Shown here: positions 15,036 through 33,589 of the stretch, one piece after another
Layout: every line of letters starts with the position of its first letter
How positions within the stretch are numbered: the stretch's first letter is position 1
Assembly: GCA_018053145.1 (NCBI GenBank)
Contig: JAGPMA010000020.1
Location: forward strand, 1-39,058
From: Oscillospiraceae bacterium
GTDB lineage: Bacteria > Bacillota > Clostridia > Oscillospirales > Oscillospiraceae
Reading direction: 5' to 3'
DNA: 39,058 nt
Translations under genes and position numbers: made by a program
The notes under the pieces: model-generated
The model's input: the letters and a program-made list of their open reading frames with translations, nothing else
Databases searched by the model: none
Told to the model about the DNA's origin: nothing

Positions 15036-15229
15036 AAGCTCAAACCTCTTCAGTCAAGTTAATCAATGTAATACGCATTATATAACATTTTTCATCATAT
15101 TAAAACCCTGCTTGTATCATAATTTTATCAAGCAAAAACGCCCGTCAGTTGGTTACAAATCATAAAAACGGCTTATTTGTCAAATTGCGGCGCAGAATTG
15201 TCGGCAATTTCGCCATACCACACCAGCTT

Positions 15230-15251
15230 AATATTATTTTGTAATAATATT
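15230..15251. promoter_or_regulatory. AT-rich palindrome in the guaA-marR interval
   Basis: AATATTATT and AATAATATT (9-bp arms) around a 4-bp centre. It lies 23 bp upstream of the -35 box of the marR promoter and resembles the second palindrome at 15309; it may be an additional MarR-type operator. Confidence 0.4.
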
Positions 15252-15273
15252 ATATATACTGCTGAAATTTTAG

Positions 15274-15302
15274 TTGCAAGTATGTGCGGCGGGTGATATT
15301 AT
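15274..15302 (+). promoter_or_regulatory. Promoter of the marR-SPT-SDR operon
   Basis: TTGCAA (15274-15279), 17-nt spacer, TATTAT (15297-15302). The predicted start falls at about 15309, the first base of an AT-rich palindrome. Confidence 0.6.
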
Positions 15303-15308
15303 TGATTT

Positions 15309-15327
15309 AATATTTTATATAAATATT
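15309..15327. promoter_or_regulatory. Candidate MarR autoregulatory operator
   Basis: AATATTT and AAATATT arms of 7 bp around a 5-bp TATAT centre, placed on the predicted transcription start and 17 bp upstream of the ribosome site. MarR proteins typically bind AT-rich palindromes of about this size in their own promoter. Inference only. Confidence 0.45.
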
Positions 15328-15353
15328 TTTATCTATTATTGATGAGGTATCTT

Positions 15354-15785
15354 ATGGTTACAGATTTTGAGCAGATTTACCGCTATCTTCGGCTTGCGCA
15401 TTATCAAAATCTCTTTGCGACAATCAGCGAAAAGCCCGGAAGTCTGAGCGCGACGGAAGCGTTTTCGGCCGAAGTCATATTCCTTTTGGGAGAGCCGACG
15501 ATTGGAGAATTTGCCGACTTTATCGGAATTTCTCAGCCAAATGCTTCTTATAAGGTAATTTCTCTCGTTTCAAAAGGTTATATTACCAAAGAGTCCTGCG
15601 AAAACGATAAACGCGAGTGTCGACTTGTCGTAACCCAAAAATTCCTTGATTACTACGGCAGTCAGCTGCCCGACCTTTCCGGACTTACAAAGGACTTTTC
15701 TGAAGAGGAAATCGCTGTGCTGACCAAGCTTTCGCAGCGGATTTCCAACAATATTATGTCAACCAACAACAAGCACTGCAATTAA
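15354..15785 (+). CDS. MarR-family transcriptional regulator
   Basis: A 143-residue winged-helix regulator. The DNA-binding part reads PTIGEFADFIGISQPNASYK followed by the wing KGYITKESCENDKRECRL, where the D-K-R-E/x-x-L pattern (usually DRR) is the MarR wing signature. Helices at both ends would form the dimer interface. In-frame TTG (15339) and ATG (15342) codons lie upstream, but GATGAGGT sits there as ribosome site for the ATG at 15354. It is first in an operon with the serine-palmitoyltransferase-like gene (22 nt later) and the reductase, and probably controls them in response to a lipid-like or aromatic ligand. Confidence 0.85.
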   Translation: MVTDFEQIYRYLRLAHYQNLFATISEKPGSLSATEAFSAEVIFLLGEPTIGEFADFIGISQPNASYKVISLVSKGYITKESCENDKRECRLVVTQKFLDYYGSQLPDLSGLTKDFSEEEIAVLTKLSQRISNNIMSTNNKHCN

Positions 15786-15807
15786 GCTTATTTAAGGGAG
15801 AGTTTCA

Positions 15808-16992
15808 ATGGACATTTTTGAAAAATGCGAACACAAATCGCTTGCCGACGAAGCACGCGAAGCAGGAGTTTACCCCTATTTTCACGCACTTGAGTCCCGT
15901 CAGGATATCGAAGTTGTCATGGAAGGCAAGCGCAGAATAATGCTCGGATCCAACAACTATCTCGGGCTTACAATCAACCCAAACGTAATTGAAGCCGGAA
16001 TAAAGGCGATTGAAAAATACGGCACCGGCTGCAGCGGCTCACGATTTCTCAACGGAACGCTAAATATGCATCTTGAGCTTGAAGCCGAGCTTGCAGAGTT
16101 TCTGCGTAAGGAGGATATCGTAACCTTCTCAACCGGCTTCCAATCAAATCTTGGCATCATCAGCGCTATCGTCAGCCGTACAGACTATGTCATCTGCGAC
16201 AAGGAAAACCATGCCAGCATTTATGATGGGTGCAAGCTGAGCTATGGAAAAATGCTTCGCTATAAGCATAATGATATGGAAGACCTTGAGCGTCTACTCC
16301 AAAGCATTCCTGACACAGCGGGGATTCTGATTGTAACCGATGGTGTTTTCAGCATGGGCGGCGATATCGCAAATCTCCCCGAAATTGTCAGACTTGCCAA
16401 AAAATATGGTGCTCGAATAATGGTAGACGACGCACACGGTCTTGGCGTTATCGGTGAAGGAGGACGCGGCACTGCAAGCTATTTCGGACTTGAAAAAGAA
16501 GTCGATATATACATGGGCACCTTCTCAAAATCGCTGGCAAGTCTTGGCGGCTATATGGCTTGCTCCTCAAAGGTTGCGGACTTTGTTCGACACAGTTCTC
16601 GTCCTTTCATCTTCTCAGCTTCAATGACGCCTGCGAGTTGTGCCTGCGCTCTTGCTTCTCTACGCGAGTTGAAGGCTCATCCCGAGCTTGTTTCGAATCT
16701 CGCTCATATCTCGCAATATATGCGTGACGGTTTGACAAAGCGCGGGATTGCGCACCGTGCAAGCGCAACGCCTATCATTCCCATCTACACCTACGAAACC
16801 TTCCGCACTCTCGGAATTGCCAAGGATCTCTACGAGGAGGGTGTTTACGTTAATCCCGTTCTTCCTCCGGCAACTCCACCCGCAGAATGTCTGCTTCGCA
16901 CCAGCTACATGGCCTCACATACCGAAGCTATTCTCGACGAGGCCTTGGATATCATCAAGGAAGTTCTGGGGAAGAGCAAATGGGAAATGTAG
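15808..16992 (+). CDS. Alpha-oxoamine synthase, serine palmitoyltransferase-like
   Basis: PLP enzyme that condenses an amino acid with an acyl thioester and releases CO2. The 394-residue sequence carries the family active site: His135 (HAS) stacking on PLP, Asp207/208 and His210 (VDDAHG), and Lys241 (TFSKSLASLGG) for the Schiff base. The segment GSRFLNGTLNMHLELE (77-92) is the form seen in bacterial serine palmitoyltransferases, where KBL has 'RFICGTQ..H' and BioF 'SRL..G....H'. With a ketosphinganine-reductase-like gene overlapping its end, sphingoid-base synthesis is the best reading; the amino acid could also be alanine, glycine or cysteate. No bioA/D/B or tdh neighbours support biotin or threonine roles. 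Confidence 0.85.
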   Translation: MDIFEKCEHKSLADEAREAGVYPYFHALESRQDIEVVMEGKRRIMLGSNNYLGLTINPNVIEAGIKAIEKYGTGCSGSRFLNGTLNMHLELEAELAEFLRKEDIVTFSTGFQSNLGIISAIVSRTDYVICDKENHASIYDGCKLSYGKMLRYKHNDMEDLERLLQSIPDTAGILIVTDGVFSMGGDIANLPEIVRLAKKYGARIMVDDAHGLGVIGEGGRGTASYFGLEKEVDIYMGTFSKSLASLGGYMACSSKVADFVRHSSRPFIFSASMTPASCACALASLRELKAHPELVSNLAHISQYMRDGLTKRGIAHRASATPIIPIYTYETFRTLGIAKDLYEEGVYVNPVLPPATPPAECLLRTSYMASHTEAILDEALDIIKEVLGKSKWEM

Positions 16993-17768
16993 TTGTAATT
17001 ACGGGTGGCAGCAGCGGCATCGGCAAAAGCACCGCAGCCCTATTTTGCAAAAACGGCTGCACAGTTTATGAACTAAGCCGCAGCGGAATAAGCGAAAACG
17101 GCGTAACACATATCACAGCCGACATAACAATTCCTGAGGATATTCAGAGAACTTTCAAAGAGATTTTTGATAAGGAAGGCCGTTTTGACCTTTTGATTAA
17201 CAATGCCGGAATGGGCATTTCCGGCGCAATAGAGTTCACAAGCGAGGAACAGGCTCATCGAATTTTCGATGTTAACTTTTTCGGCACCTTCCTTTGCTGC
17301 AAAGAAGCTCTCCCCTATCTGCGAAAAACTAAGGGCTCACGCATAATTAACTTAAGCTCGGTCGCCGCTCCGCTTTCAATTCCATTTCAGGCATTTTATT
17401 CCGGAACAAAAGCGGCAATAAACTCCTTGACACTTGCACTTGCAAATGAAGTACGCCCATTCGGAATCAAGGTGAGCGCGGTTATGCCCGGCGATGTTCA
17501 CACAGGCTTTACCGCCTCGCGTGAGAAGAACGAGGAAGGCGCGGCACTCTACGGTGAGAGTATCGCAAGAGCGGTTTCTTCAATGGAAAAAGACGAGCTT
17601 TCAGGCATGACGCCCGATTTTATCGCTTCTGTAATATACCGTATTTCACGTAAGAAAAGCCCTAAGGTTCTTTATACGGCAGGCGGAAAATACAAGCTGT
17701 TTGTATTCATTTCAAAAATCCTGCCCGTGAATCTCTGCAATAAGCTGGTGGGAAAAATATATAACTGA
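16980..17768 (+). CDS. Short-chain dehydrogenase/reductase, 3-ketodihydrosphingosine reductase-like
   Basis: A 262-residue classical SDR: cofactor motif TGGSSGIG (8-15), NNAG (74-77), catalytic Ser127 and Tyr140-x3-Lys144. The residue pattern after the first strand (LSRSG) suggests NADP(H) use. The C-terminus (KLFVFISKILPVNLCNKLVG) is hydrophobic and amphipathic, suiting a membrane-lipid substrate. The gene begins at ATG 16980, inside the end of the SPT-like gene (13-nt overlap in another frame), so translation is coupled; the longer frame from 16887 only reads through the SPT gene. Role inferred from context: reduction of the 3-keto group of the SPT product. Confidence 0.8.
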   Translation: MGNVVVITGGSSGIGKSTAALFCKNGCTVYELSRSGISENGVTHITADITIPEDIQRTFKEIFDKEGRFDLLINNAGMGISGAIEFTSEEQAHRIFDVNFFGTFLCCKEALPYLRKTKGSRIINLSSVAAPLSIPFQAFYSGTKAAINSLTLALANEVRPFGIKVSAVMPGDVHTGFTASREKNEEGAALYGESIARAVSSMEKDELSGMTPDFIASVIYRISRKKSPKVLYTAGGKYKLFVFISKILPVNLCNKLVGKIYN

Positions 17769-17798: not shown

Positions 17799-17823
17799 GG
17801 CGCTCATTTCGAGCGCCTTTTTT
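17799..17823 (+). terminator. Terminator of the marR-SPT-SDR operon
   Basis: GGCGCTC (17799-17805) and GAGCGCC (17811-17817), 5-nt loop, then six T. Confidence 0.85.
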
Positions 17824-17943
17824 ATGTTCCCTCACCAATCTTTTTATTGTTCTAAATATTTTTAAGTTAAATTAAAGATAATGCAATATGTTAATTTCAA
17901 CCATATGGTTATACTGGATTTCGAATTCGAAAGGAATAACGGG

Positions 17944-18519
17944 ATGAAAAATATTTTTACTAATGTCCTATGCGCTTCGCTTCTTGTCTTCATGCTTGTC
18001 GGCTGCGGCAAATCTTCCGAAAGCAACTTGAGTAACACAACCGTAACTGGCCAGGTAACGACTATAGACGGGAATTCCGTCACGCTTTTACTCGGTGAAC
18101 TGACAGAAAATGAAATGGCTGGCGCCCCCGCTGATGGTGGCGAAGCTCCCTCCGGGGATGGCACGCCTCCTTCCGGTGCTCCCTCCGGGGATGGCACTCC
18201 TCCTTCCGGTGCTCCCTCTGGAGGCGGTACTCCTCCTTCCGATACGCCCTCTGGGGATACAGCTTCCGGCGAGGCACAGTCCGCACAGCTGCCTTCAGGT
18301 GGCTGTGCTATGCCAAGCTTCACAGTGGGAACGGACAGTACAACAATCACAATAACCGACAGTACCGCTATCACAATTGAGGGCATGGGCGAAGGCATCG
18401 AGGGTACAATCGCCGACATCACGGTTGATTCCATTCTTGAAGTCTGCTTTGGTGATGATAATACCGTAAGCACCATTATAGTAAAGAACATTACAGGAGG
18501 TCCCGCGGCAAAGAGCTAA
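17944..18519 (+). CDS. Lipoprotein with Pro/Gly/Ser repeats
   Basis: A 191-residue exported lipoprotein: signal peptide with lipobox LVGC, then a beta-rich segment (VTGQVTTIDGNSVTLLLG), a Pro-Gly-Ser-rich repeat block of about 45 residues, and a second beta-rich segment (TDSTTITITDSTAITIEG onward). The two flanking segments resemble the small beta-barrel repeats of DUF5666-like surface proteins, but the function is unknown. The upstream in-frame ATG at 17881 lacks a ribosome site; the ATG at 17944 follows AAAGGA. A long open frame on the opposite strand here is only a by-product of the GC-rich repeats. Confidence 0.75.
   Translation: MKNIFTNVLCASLLVFMLVGCGKSSESNLSNTTVTGQVTTIDGNSVTLLLGELTENEMAGAPADGGEAPSGDGTPPSGAPSGDGTPPSGAPSGGGTPPSDTPSGDTASGEAQSAQLPSGGCAMPSFTVGTDSTTITITDSTAITIEGMGEGIEGTIADITVDSILEVCFGDDNTVSTIIVKNITGGPAAKS
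18148..18246 (+). repeat. Three 33-bp tandem repeats in the lipoprotein gene
   Basis: Units at 18148-18180, 18181-18213 and 18214-18246, the first two differing at one base, followed by a partial fourth. They encode the 11-residue unit PSGDGTPPSGA. Copy number is likely to vary between strains by slippage. Confidence 0.9.
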
Positions 18520-30462: not shown

Positions 30463-31401
30463 TTATGAGCTAGTGCGCTCAAGCAGGCGTTCCCATTTTT
30501 CGTCAACTGCTTTCTGAGCTTCTTCAAGCATCCACTCATTGCCCTTTTGGAACATATGGCTGAATCTGGTCTGCGAACGTAAATAGTCCACAACCGGCAG
30601 TTTCTTCTTCGGCGAATAGCTAAGGCGCCACACGCCCTCCTCAACCTCGAAAAGCGGCCAGACGCAGCTGTCCACAGCGAGCTTAACGATTTCGGGAAGC
30701 TTTGCCATCGGATAGCCCCAGCCGCGCGGGCACGGTGAAAGCACGTTCAAAAAGCAGGGCCCCTCGGTGTAAATCGCCTTATATGACTTGGTATGCAAGT
30801 CCTTCAAATTTCCTATCGGAGCGGTCTGTGCAACATAAGGGATATTATGCGCGACCAGAATCTCTGTCATGTCCTTTTTGTTCTGCAGCTTACCCTGACG
30901 AGACGAACCAACTGCCGTGGTTGTCGTGCTTGCAAAACGGGGTGTAGATGACGAGCGCTGGATTCCCGTGTTCATATAGGCTTCGTTGTCATAGCAGACA
31001 TATACCATGTCATGCCCGCGCTCCATCGCTCCCGACAGGGACTGAAAGCCTATATCATATGTACCGCCGTCACCTGCAAAGGTAATGAATTTAACTGTAT
31101 CGTCCACCTTACCACGACGCTTGAGCGCATTATATGCCGCTTCAACTCCTGAGCAGGTCGCCGCAGAATTTTCAAAAGCAGAATGAATGTAGCTGTCCGT
31201 ATAGGCGGTATAGGGATACATAAAGGTTGAAACCTCAAGACAGCAGGTTGCATTGGTTATGACAGCTCTGTCCTCTTTTTCAAGTGCGCGCAGAACTCCC
31301 GACACAACGATTCCGGCACCGCAGCCCGCGCAGAGGCGATGCCCTCCGGTGAGACGTTCCGGCTTTTCCACTTCCCTTTTCAGGTCATATACTGTGTTCA
31401 T
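30463..31401 (-). CDS. porB: 2-oxoacid:ferredoxin oxidoreductase, beta subunit (PorB-like)
   Basis: Thiamine-diphosphate subunit of a four-subunit 2-oxoacid:ferredoxin oxidoreductase, 312 residues. The N-terminal CAGCGAG supplies cysteines for the proximal 4Fe-4S cluster, GDGGTYDIGFQ is the ThDP/Mg site, and YDNEAYMNTGIQRS is the conserved following segment. The enzyme reversibly decarboxylates a 2-oxoacid to acyl-CoA with ferredoxin reduction. Last gene of the operon; the ATG overlaps the end of porA by 4 nt. PorB and VorB types look alike here, so pyruvate is not certain; the Ile T-box upstream argues for a role linked to isoleucine. Confidence 0.9.
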   Translation of the reverse strand: MNTVYDLKREVEKPERLTGGHRLCAGCGAGIVVSGVLRALEKEDRAVITNATCCLEVSTFMYPYTAYTDSYIHSAFENSAATCSGVEAAYNALKRRGKVDDTVKFITFAGDGGTYDIGFQSLSGAMERGHDMVYVCYDNEAYMNTGIQRSSSTPRFASTTTTAVGSSRQGKLQNKKDMTEILVAHNIPYVAQTAPIGNLKDLHTKSYKAIYTEGPCFLNVLSPCPRGWGYPMAKLPEIVKLAVDSCVWPLFEVEEGVWRLSYSPKKKLPVVDYLRSQTRFSHMFQKGNEWMLEEAQKAVDEKWERLLERTSS

Positions 31402-32582
31402 GTTGTCTCTCCCTTCGTTCTGTGCCCCATATGGCTGTATACAGGCCCCGTAACGCCCGTTTCAGCAATCGTCTGAAGTCGTGAGAAAACTCTCTCTGCG
31501 TCCTCGATTTTGAAGTCACGTCCACCAAGACCGTAAACTATATTTATTAAATGCGGTCGTTTTTCCAAATCATACAGAGCACTTCGAGTTTCGGCAAAAA
31601 GCGGCCCTCCGTTTGCGGAAAAGCCCTCGGACTTATCCAAAACGGCAACAGACTTTGTTTTGGATAACACCTTTGCAAGCTCCTCACCTGGGAAGGGTCG
31701 GAACACGCGGATTTTTACGAGACCGGCCTTAACCCCCTCGTCACGCAGCTTATCAATTGCGGCCTTGGCGGTTCCGGCACTTGAACCGATTAAAACAATC
31801 GCAAGCTCCGCGTCCTGCATTTGATACTCCTCAAATAAACCGTAGTGCCTGCCCGAGAGCTTTTCGAATTCCCCCGCCACCTTAAGAATACGAGCCTTAA
31901 CCACCTTCATCGCCTCTGCCTGCATAACCTTGTGTTCCATGTAATAGGCGCTTATATCATAAGGCCCGACCGCCAGAGGATTTTCCTTTTTAAGCAGATA
32001 ATTTTCGGGCTTATATTCCCCGACGAACTCGCGCACGGCCTGTGTTTCAATAAGTTCAATGTTCTCTACTGCGTGGCTTGTTATAAAGCCGTCCATACAG
32101 CACATGACAGGCAAGCGTACATTTTCACCAACTGGCATAGCCATGATAAAATTATCGTAGGCCTCCTGATTGCTCTCGGCATACATTTGGATCCAGCCGG
32201 CATCACGTGCGCCCATGGAGTCGGAGTGGTCGTTGTTAATATTAATTGGGCCAGAAAGAGCGCGGTTGACGCAGGCAAGCGTAATCGGCAAGCGATTTGA
32301 TGCAGCGACATACAGAAGCTCATACATCAGCGCAAGTCCGCAGCTTGAAGTCGCGCTCACGCTTCTTGCCCCCGCGGCTTCCGCCGCGATGCAAACGGAC
32401 ATTGAGCTGTGCTCGGATTCGACGGTTACATATTCGGTGTTGACCTCGCCGTTAGCAACATATTTGGCGAAATATTCGGGGATTTCTGTTGAGGGCGTGA
32501 TTGGGAAAGCGCCCATGACGTCGGGATTAATCTGCTTCATGGCGTAGGCCACTGCCTCATTTCCGGAAATACAGGTGCTCAT
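31398..32582 (-). CDS. porA: 2-oxoacid:ferredoxin oxidoreductase, alpha subunit (PorA-like)
   Basis: A 394-residue alpha subunit. The N-terminal domain contains GAFPITPSTEIPEYF and the TATSSCGLALMYE-like segment of the pyrimidine-binding domain, the middle domain has the FRPFPGEEL motif, and the C-terminus carries the VLDKSEGFSANGGPL segment (typically 'DR..s.G..G.L'). It pairs with the beta subunit to form the active site. AGGAGGTGAG precedes the ATG; a 4-nt overlap with the delta gene gives coupled translation. Confidence 0.92.
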   Translation of the reverse strand: MSTCISGNEAVAYAMKQINPDVMGAFPITPSTEIPEYFAKYVANGEVNTEYVTVESEHSSMSVCIAAEAAGARSVSATSSCGLALMYELLYVAASNRLPITLACVNRALSGPININNDHSDSMGARDAGWIQMYAESNQEAYDNFIMAMPVGENVRLPVMCCMDGFITSHAVENIELIETQAVREFVGEYKPENYLLKKENPLAVGPYDISAYYMEHKVMQAEAMKVVKARILKVAGEFEKLSGRHYGLFEEYQMQDAELAIVLIGSSAGTAKAAIDKLRDEGVKAGLVKIRVFRPFPGEELAKVLSKTKSVAVLDKSEGFSANGGPLFAETRSALYDLEKRPHLINIVYGLGGRDFKIEDAERVFSRLQTIAETGVTGPVYSHMGHRTKGETT

Positions 32583-32887
32583 ACGCTCTCACCTCCTGAC
32601 ACCATTTTTATTGCCGCAAAGGGGCACACGGTTTCGCATATACCGCATCCCTTGCAGTGCATATAATCAAATTCCAAGCGTTTACCGTCCTTAACAGGGA
32701 TTGCGCTGTCGGGACAAAACGGCACGCAAAGCATACAATGCTTGCAGGCATCCGCAATAAAAACCGGCGTGTCGGTTCGCCAAGTGCCCGTATTAAAGTT
32801 TCTCGCTGTTCCGGGCTCGTAGATTTCACCACCGGGTGTTAACTCTTCATAAGGTGTCTGTTCATTGATATCTCTCGCATGAATCAT
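32579..32887 (-). CDS. porD: 2-oxoacid:ferredoxin oxidoreductase, delta (ferredoxin-like) subunit
   Basis: A 102-residue subunit with two classic 4Fe-4S cluster motifs, CKHCMLCVPFCP and CKGCGICETVCP, which carry electrons from the ThDP site to external ferredoxin. The N-terminal part (EIYEPGTARNFNTGTWRTD) matches PorD/VorD subunits. GGAGGTGCAGG precedes the ATG, and it overlaps both neighbours by 4 nt. Confidence 0.92.
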   Translation of the reverse strand: MIHARDINEQTPYEELTPGGEIYEPGTARNFNTGTWRTDTPVFIADACKHCMLCVPFCPDSAIPVKDGKRLEFDYMHCKGCGICETVCPFAAIKMVSGGESV

Positions 32888-33468
32888 CCTGCCTGCACCT
32901 CCTCCAAGGATTTTTTAAGTGTCTCCATATTGCCCGCGATAACCTGCGGTTTCGAAGCGAACTTATGTTTGAACGAATCTTCCATATTCGATAAAAAGCG
33001 CTCTGTTTCCAAAACTTCGCTCACCTTGACTACTGCGGCAAGCATGGGCGTGTTCGGAAAATTTTTACCAAGTATCTCCTCCGAAATCTTGCGCGCATCA
33101 ATTGTGCAGACTTGTCCCTCCCAACCTCGCAGCTTGGAGCGTACATTTTGGGGTGAACTTGAGCTGTTAATGATAACCGCTCCGCCCTCTTTCAGCCCTG
33201 CGCAAACATCAACGCTTTCCAGCAGTGTTTCGTCTAAAACGACCACATAGTTCGGATAGTAAATATTGGAGTGTATGGTGCAGCGCTTTTCGCAGATTCG
33301 ATTATAAGCCGTAATGGGGGCTCCCATTCGTTCTGGACCGTATTCTGGAAAGCCCTGCACGAATTTCCCTTCTGTTCCCGCCACCTCCGCCAGCAGCAGG
33401 CAGGCCGTTTTTGCTCCCTGTCCGCCTCGGCCGTGCCAGCGAATCTCAACCATATCGCTTGTTGCCAT
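32884..33468 (-). CDS. porC: 2-oxoacid:ferredoxin oxidoreductase, gamma subunit (PorC/PorG-like)
   Basis: A 194-residue gamma subunit with the opening RWHGRGGQGAKTACLLLAE and the FPEYGPERMGAPI segment, both hallmarks of the family, and ending in a helix-rich tail. The in-frame TTG at 33486 precedes a GGAGG ribosome site and can be discarded; translation begins at ATG 33468. It is the first gene of the gamma-delta-alpha-beta operon and follows the T-box leader by about 120 nt. Confidence 0.92.
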   Translation of the reverse strand: MATSDMVEIRWHGRGGQGAKTACLLLAEVAGTEGKFVQGFPEYGPERMGAPITAYNRICEKRCTIHSNIYYPNYVVVLDETLLESVDVCAGLKEGGAVIINSSSSPQNVRSKLRGWEGQVCTIDARKISEEILGKNFPNTPMLAAVVKVSEVLETERFLSNMEDSFKHKFASKPQVIAGNMETLKKSLEEVQAG

Positions 33469-33589
33469 TTCTTTTCCTCCAGTCAATAAGTGTGATAAAT
33501 CATGTCAAATTTCTCTTTAGGGCCAGTTACCCTCTCGTAAGCGGTAATTACGGCTCATGTCATTAGCGTCCAATACGCCTCGTAAGTGA

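Follow-up and report, generated by a model that had tools for sequence, protein, structure and literature searches.

Whether some Clostridia make sphingoid bases, and by which order of steps, is the question raised by a compact operon in an Oscillospiraceae bacterium (NCBI GenBank assembly GCA_018053145.1; 2.25 Mb in 106 contigs, ~95% complete). The operon lies on the + strand of contig JAGPMA010000020.1, of which positions 1 to 39,058, hereafter the window, were analysed. It consists of a gene for a MarR-family regulator, a gene for a serine palmitoyltransferase (SPT)-type alpha-oxoamine synthase (AOS; P0001, 15808-16992, 394 aa), assigned from models, structures, a tree and residues, and a gene for a short-chain dehydrogenase (SDR; P0002, 16980-17768, 262 aa), a probable 3-ketosphinganine reductase. 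An earlier reading made from the letters alone (the sequence-only reading) had described the three genes as one operon whose last two members overlap by 13 nt, and we confirm this observation: a 22-nt gap separates marR from the AOS gene, and translation of the SDR from ATG 16980, within a listed open reading frame that begins at 16887, yields a 13-nt overlap with the AOS stop. The gene anatomy is thus established at the level of sequence.

We hypothesize, with a probability of roughly 0.77, that the AOS and SDR of the operon carry out, in the eukaryotic order, the two opening steps of long-chain-base synthesis and together give a sphinganine-type base. The pyridoxal phosphate (PLP) enzyme would use a long-chain acyl thioester and a small amino acid (most likely L-serine) in a decarboxylating condensation that gives a 3-keto long-chain base; the SDR encoded by the overlapping gene would then reduce the 3-keto group, presumably with NADPH, to a sphinganine-type amino alcohol; and the MarR protein would probably control the operon through a conserved palindrome downstream of the promoter.

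Relationship of the synthase to serine palmitoyltransferases

The fold of the synthase is plain from its ~50% identity to a solved SPT. The best match among solved structures is the SPT of S. multivorum (SmSPT, 3a2b) at 411 bits, followed at a distance by the best non-SPT structure (8s1y, an AOS named BioF/KBL, 258 bits), KBL (241-250 bits), a cysteate acyltransferase (229), BioF (198) and CqsA (114). The best NCBIfam model is likewise an SPT model, SerpalmtaseCFB (NF047600), at 522.8 bits, which leads the best non-SPT model by 143 bits (gly_Cac_T_rel, 379.7; bioF, 375.0; Kbl, 374.2; CqsA-type, 199). The nearest records, 86-90% identical, are metagenome assemblies of uncultured 'Clostridiales', 'Firmicutes' and 'Bacillota'.

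Phylogenetic analysis points the same way. A quick tree of 70 rows placed the window AOS inside the SPT branch (SH-aLRT 100). A more careful tree retained 55 rows after removal of 5 with long branches and 10 that were near-duplicates or thinned out; in it the 19 rows on the KBL/BioF side, which include paralogues from the same family, were split at 100/100 from the SPTs and the window clade. The window clade itself (26 rows) has a support of 90/75, and the Bacteroidota SPTs are its sister, the union being supported at 92/77. No CqsA, SulA or ALAS sequence is in the tree, and E. coli BioF is present in the 70-row one alone. The sequence-only reading had called the synthase SPT-like and not a KBL or BioF form, a call that the phylogeny bears out as far as KBL and BioF are concerned, SulA and CqsA being outside it.

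The active-site residues, described in the same reading as complete, were surveyed in 133 homologue rows (identity >=54%; 128 distinct, the window's own counted). The PLP and catalytic set of the window AOS is complete (N49, S78, H135, D207, H210, K241 and R364), the last five of these aligning with His138, Asp210, His213, Lys244 and Arg367 of SmSPT; H135, D207, H210 and K241 are kept in 133/133 rows and R364 in 131, with 2 gaps. These residues are common to KBL and BioF too and so are not diagnostic. SmSPT Asn52, Ser81, His138, Ser185, Asp210, His213, Thr241 and Lys244, whose roles are described in PMC10196870, are all retained in the window AOS and in every row. The motif GSRFLNGTL, taken earlier as the SPT form, is found in the window AOS and, as SGSRFLNGTL, in 124 of the 133 rows; its equivalents are AGSRFLNGTL in SmSPT, ASVRFICGTQ in E. 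coli Kbl and GGSGHVSGYS in E. coli BioF. At SmSPT position 274 (A271 in the window AOS) all 133 rows and 11/11 references from the SPT branch have alanine, and the 4 references for KBL/BioF have Asn or Thr; SulA is reported to carry Lys281 at this position, where SPT carries Ala (PMC9304779). The Bacteroidota SPTs (those of S. multivorum, Bacteroides, Parabacteroides and Prevotella) share the GSRFLNGTL motif, the PLP site and this diagnostic Ala with the window AOS. The gene is under strong purifying selection, with a ratio of nonsynonymous to synonymous rates (dN/dS) of 0.02-0.04 against three relatives, dS being saturated. A placement of the AOS with SPT, and not with KBL or BioF, has the support of the phylogeny, the residues, the best-scoring models and the missing BioB described below.

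The probable reductase and its pairing with the synthase

Among 218 NCBIfam SDR models the best match of P0002 is KdsR (NF049977), at 225 bits. The SDR motifs TGxxxGxG and Ser-Tyr-Lys are present (T8, G9, G13, G15, S127, Y140 and K144) and kept in 95% or more of 41 rows; they are common to other SDRs and not diagnostic. In an SDR tree the SPT-adjacent SDRs and the best Prevotella match to the KdsR model form a branch supported at 99/95, which also contains one long-branch Oceanirhabdus SDR. P0002 is 36% identical to an Oceanirhabdus SDR that adjoins its own spt, and 27-32% identical to eight other SDRs of three records. In Oceanirhabdus sp. W0125-5 the two genes lie on a complete chromosome (locus L111).

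Co-occurrence was examined in 150 genomes of the same family, with cut-offs (AOS E<=1e-100, SDR E<=1e-50) set after viewing the lists. The AOS was found in 55 genomes (three as fragments), 58-90% identical outside the window's own, and the SDR in 60 (62 at E<=1e-30); both genes occurred in 52 genomes, the AOS only in 3, the SDR only in 8 and neither in 87. The SDR was thus present in 52/55 AOS-positive versus 8/95 AOS-negative genomes (Fisher p 7e-28, a value that ignores relatedness). At E<=1e-30, counting the weaker SDR of G111, 53 genomes carried both, 47 with the pair adjacent and 6 with the genes on separate contigs, some of which may be assembly breaks; in G040 the AOS is cut by a contig end, and G004 has no SDR within 1.5 kb of its AOS and one elsewhere in the genome. 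An in-frame TGA lies within the AOS match at G004:C2:136373-137548 and another at G052:C23:70611-71789.

The pairing extends beyond the family. An SDR adjoins the AOS at 85 of 106 distinct loci (74 downstream, 9 upstream and 2 divergent). In a sample of 398 genomes from the phylum, the AOS (>=54% identity) was present in 20, the window's own counted, and in 17 of the 19 others an SDR adjoins it; as judged from the gene rows of these 19 neighbourhoods, the SDR is the only linked partner that recurs across families (17/19), the other neighbours being, by eye, seemingly housekeeping genes or lineage synteny. At one locus (L228) the AOS itself is hidden by an antisense gene call, and in one family of the phylum sample the AOS-adjacent SDR is divergent and 30-36% identical. 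Best-model score, tree and very strong co-occurrence thus make the SDR a probable 3-ketosphinganine reductase.

Several more distant homologues were noted. In family f31 (L222, L224, L227, L231, L232, L234 and L239) a small protein, OmpH-like by eye, follows the divergent SDR and might point to a host with two membranes. Two metagenome-assembled genomes labelled Izimaplasma (L110, L113) and one labelled Spirochaetaceae (L114) contain SPT homologues, 61-62% identical, that are nested in the clostridial clade, which may reflect transfer or misbinning. A Priestia megaterium plasmid (Bacilli; CP109762.1, L119:5001-6215) carries an SPT-clade AOS of 50% identity with the SPT-type Ala, which scores 522 bits against SerpalmtaseCFB and is divergent from a methyltransferase gene and an Acyl_transf_3 acyltransferase gene.

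Weighing the proposed pathway against its alternatives

A number of observations weigh against a sphinganine-forming operon. The AOS does not pass the curated SerpalmtaseCFB cut-off of 640 bits, so that what we claim is membership of the SPT clade and not equivalence to the model's equivalog; that cut-off is passed by the Parabacteroides SPT (683.8) and failed by the SPT-branch AOS of Priestia (522.0) and that of Oceanirhabdus (585.5), and the Roseomonas AOS passes a different SPT model, NF047599. Identity to the Bacteroidota SPTs is 51-53%, and where these have Ala at SmSPT position 79 the window AOS has Ser, as do 132 of the 133 rows; as SmSPT Ala79 is reported to touch the substrate side chain through water (PMC10196870), a preference for serine is not assured. 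A cyanobacterial AOS with many SPT residues is reported to have produced no ketosphinganine in E. coli (PMC8895605), although that AOS fell outside the SPT clade and the window AOS falls inside it. Likewise, the SDR stays under the KdsR cut-off of 400, a score that no match from 14 control genomes, among them Bacteroides ihuae, reached (best Prevotella match, 223), and it is just 34% identical to the Prevotella candidate found with that model, itself unproven; candidates for the enzyme in P. copri are themselves described as 20-25% identical to references (PMC10865984). The sequence-only reading's 3-ketosphinganine-reductase-like SDR accordingly gains from model rank, tree and co-occurrence but is left with this low identity and no curated cut-off passed. 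Finally, 21 of the 106 distinct AOS loci lack an adjacent SDR, three of them with <=255 nt of contig downstream; a search of 17 of these 21 genomes gave a clear SDR elsewhere in 7, only weak ones in 2 and none at E<=1e-30 in 8.

A last point against concerns N-acylation. In the window genome no bacterial ceramide synthase (bCerS) was matched by a profile of three GNAT-type proteins of spt clusters (A1, E<=0.001) or by an enlarged one (A2, E<=0.01), a search that the sequence-only reading had proposed for the rest of the genome. In the family sample A1 matched 5 genomes, 4 strongly and all of these AOS-positive, the fifth being a weak partial match in AOS-negative G130; A2 matched 7 at E<=0.01, three of them weakly. 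In the phylum sample A2 matched 67 of the 398 genomes at E<=1e-10, among them 17/20 AOS-positive versus 50/378 others, or 9/12 versus 39/255 at the level of genera (p 1e-5). The A2-matched proteins were nevertheless dropped as ceramide synthases because, in a tree of 24 of them with 3 references, rows from AOS-positive and AOS-negative genomes were mixed and far from the references, and because an AOS was seen in 0/19 neighbourhoods of the matched genes. Loci L181-L184 and L194-L213 encode a GNAT-type family of ~380 aa distantly similar to bacterial ceramide synthase, which is commoner where the AOS is present but unlinked to it and mixed in the tree. NF047601, supposed at first to model a ceramide gene, describes a mechanosensitive channel and was set aside.

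Of the alternatives to a serine-using enzyme, the least improbable, though still unlikely, is that L-alanine or glycine is the preferred amino acid of the synthase, the operon then giving bases of the 1-deoxysphinganine type in place of sphinganine. SPT is reported to accept both amino acids (PMC10196870), bacterial 1-deoxyceramides have been described with Spt and alanine named as their source (PMC11334938), and the replacement of Ala79 by Ser would fit such a shift; yet SmSPT uses Ala and Gly at much lower efficiency (PMC10196870), the residues that surround serine in SmSPT (Asn52, Gly80, Ser81, His138, Thr241 and Lys244) are all kept, and the AOS of the spt-bCerS-cerR clusters of Aureispira, Streptomyces and Rubrobacter likewise have Ser or Thr at position 79. 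Less probable again is a secreted alpha-amino-ketone or amino-alcohol signal, made by a CqsA-like or natural-product AOS, in place of a membrane-lipid base. Such a product would suit a unit of only two enzymes and a MarR regulator in a genome without a detected ceramide synthase, but the scores for the CqsA-type model and structures are far under those for SPT (CqsA being absent from the tree, the amino-ketone signal of the sequence-only reading is disfavoured by scores only), and the wide occurrence of the pair, together with strong purifying selection on it, is more like core lipid metabolism while still compatible with a signal.

That the synthase instead serves threonine or biotin metabolism, as a KBL or BioF enzyme, and that the SDR next to it is unrelated, is very improbable. 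The enzymes belong to one superfamily, as the scores of 375 (BioF) and 374 (Kbl) bits reflect, and in a genome of the same genus (G003) bioB is present with this AOS alone found at E<=1e-60. The tree, however, separates the two sides at full support, the Thr or Asn of BioF and KBL references is replaced by Ala and the Val of KBL references by Ser78, BioB has no match in the window genome at E<=0.001, and it is above the cut-off in just 6 of the 150 family genomes, 54 of the 55 AOS-positive ones being without it. The absence of biotin and threonine genes nearby, noted earlier, agrees with our inspection by eye of the window's open reading frames, in which none was recognised, no search having been aimed at threonine dehydrogenase. 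The window genome has a single P0001 match at E<=1e-60, and the 7 other loci compared among its 9 PF00155 matches gave no P0001 match (tblastn, E<=1e-3). The least probable product of all is capnine, the sulfonolipid base that would follow if the synthase were a cysteate acyl-ACP transferase of SulA type: SulA and SPT are reported to agree in fold and in almost all of the active site (PMC9304779), and fold and PLP site are common to SulA and the window AOS as well, but the distinguishing Lys281 of SulA is replaced by Ala271 here, as by Ala in every homologue row, and the solved cysteate acyltransferase falls well short of SPT in score (229 versus 411 bits), the tree containing no SulA sequence. 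The sulfonolipid alternative offered by the sequence-only reading is disfavoured on these residues. On balance its interpretation is partly supported, and its core call of an SPT with a reductase appears well supported by the sequence comparisons.

In two annotated Bacteroidales records spt adjoins a gene of the diacylglycerol kinase family, with no SDR annotated within 3-4 kb. B. thetaiotaomicron BT_0972 (KdsR), for which 3-ketosphinganine reductase activity is reported (PMC9278070), is a classical SDR like P0002, the likeness running through the KdsR model and the Prevotella match and not through BT_0972 itself; what BT_0972 does in vivo is called unclear (PMC11087976), whereas the SDR gene of the window has a link to spt. 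The spt-bCerS-cerR clusters (Caulobacter type; Rubrobacter, Streptomyces, Aureispira) resemble the window in joining an SPT-clade AOS to a reductase gene. In the Rubrobacter, Streptomyces and Aureispira records the AOS lies near a GNAT-type gene (annotated hypothetical in Aureispira and GNAT by Pfam), read as bCerS by place, and near an oxidoreductase or epimerase-type gene; the reductase is epimerase-type (PF01370, Rubrobacter and Rahnella scanned), whereas the window SDR is classical, and no GNAT-type counterpart is detectable in the window genome.

SPT genes have already been reported from dozens of bacterial phyla (Spt-like genes in 38 phyla from the Black Sea, 9 having been known earlier; PMC11334938), and the kind of enzyme is therefore known; what look new are the clostridial clade and the tight SPT-reductase pairing without bCerS and CerR, the latter judged from the type of the operon's own SDR. 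The terms Firmicutes, Bacillota and Clostridi are all absent from the main text of PMC11334938, bacterial sphingolipids are assigned to Bacteroidetes and Proteobacteria in a 2022 paper (PMC9386255), and no report of SPT or sphingolipids in Clostridia appeared among the matches listed, as judged by title or the start of the abstract. The sequence-only reading's 'unusual in Clostridia' thus holds for lipid reports in searchable papers but not for the genes, which are common in both the family and the phylum samples.

A broader proposition, to which we give even odds, is that a large group of uncultured Clostridia, many from ruminant gut by record title, make sphinganine-type bases by a route, independent of bCerS and CerR, in which a linked KdsR acts directly after SPT (reductase-first), and that most members of the window's family use the base free or cap it with an acyltransferase that does not resemble known ceramide synthases. 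Animal guts would then contain, in the Clostridia, a source of sphingoid lipids that has been overlooked. The literature names Bacteroides species as the main gut producers of sphingolipids (PMC10865984), and source attribution in microbiome lipidomics would change if many rumen and gut Clostridia make sphingoid bases. Whether bacteria reduce ketosphinganine before N-acylation is described as an open question (PMC11087976), on which the linkage of SPT with a KdsR-like SDR bears because both genes share one small operon and can be tested together.

Putative control region and neighbouring genes

The MarR-family regulator (15354-15785, + strand; Pfam PF01047, 32 bits against a cut-off of 24.6) has an alternative start at TTG 15339, ATG 15354 being the more likely start given its ribosome-binding site. 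It adjoins the AOS in 7 of 93 loci (the window, L010 and its duplicate L039, L037 and L040-L042) and is therefore a trait of the window's near relatives. A pattern scan placed a sigma-70-like promoter at 15274-15302 on the + strand (TTGCAA, 17 nt, TATTAT, with TG ahead of the second hexamer); the scan found 6 such sites versus 5.1 expected in shuffles, and is weak alone. An alignment of the upstream regions of the window and five loci (6 rows, of which L010 and L039 are identical) has TTGnA...GTGnTAnTAT upstream of marR common to all 6 rows, and we read this conserved region as a putative promoter. Downstream lies an imperfect AT-rich palindrome at 15298-15339 (no strand; an inverted repeat, 72% complementary) with a conserved core TTTATATAAA at 15314-15323; within it, directly 5' of marR, TTTTATATAAA is invariant in 6/6 aligned rows, and the palindrome is a candidate operator of the MarR protein. 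A perfect palindrome at 15229-15252 was dropped as an operator in favour of this one, as it is not conserved in relatives. An intrinsic terminator-like hairpin (7 pairs, 6 of them G-C) followed by TTTTTT lies at 17799-17817 on the + strand; 5 terminator-like sites were found versus 3.3 expected in shuffles.

Elsewhere in the window, 30463-33486 carries a gene set for 2-oxoacid:ferredoxin oxidoreductase (Pfam POR_N, POR), enzymes that can supply acyl-CoA, and nothing ties this set to the operon. Directly 3' of the operon, at 17881-18519, is a gene for a short putative lipoprotein with a Pfam Mucin-like match under the cut-off and Gly/Pro-rich repeats (GDGTPPSGAPS).

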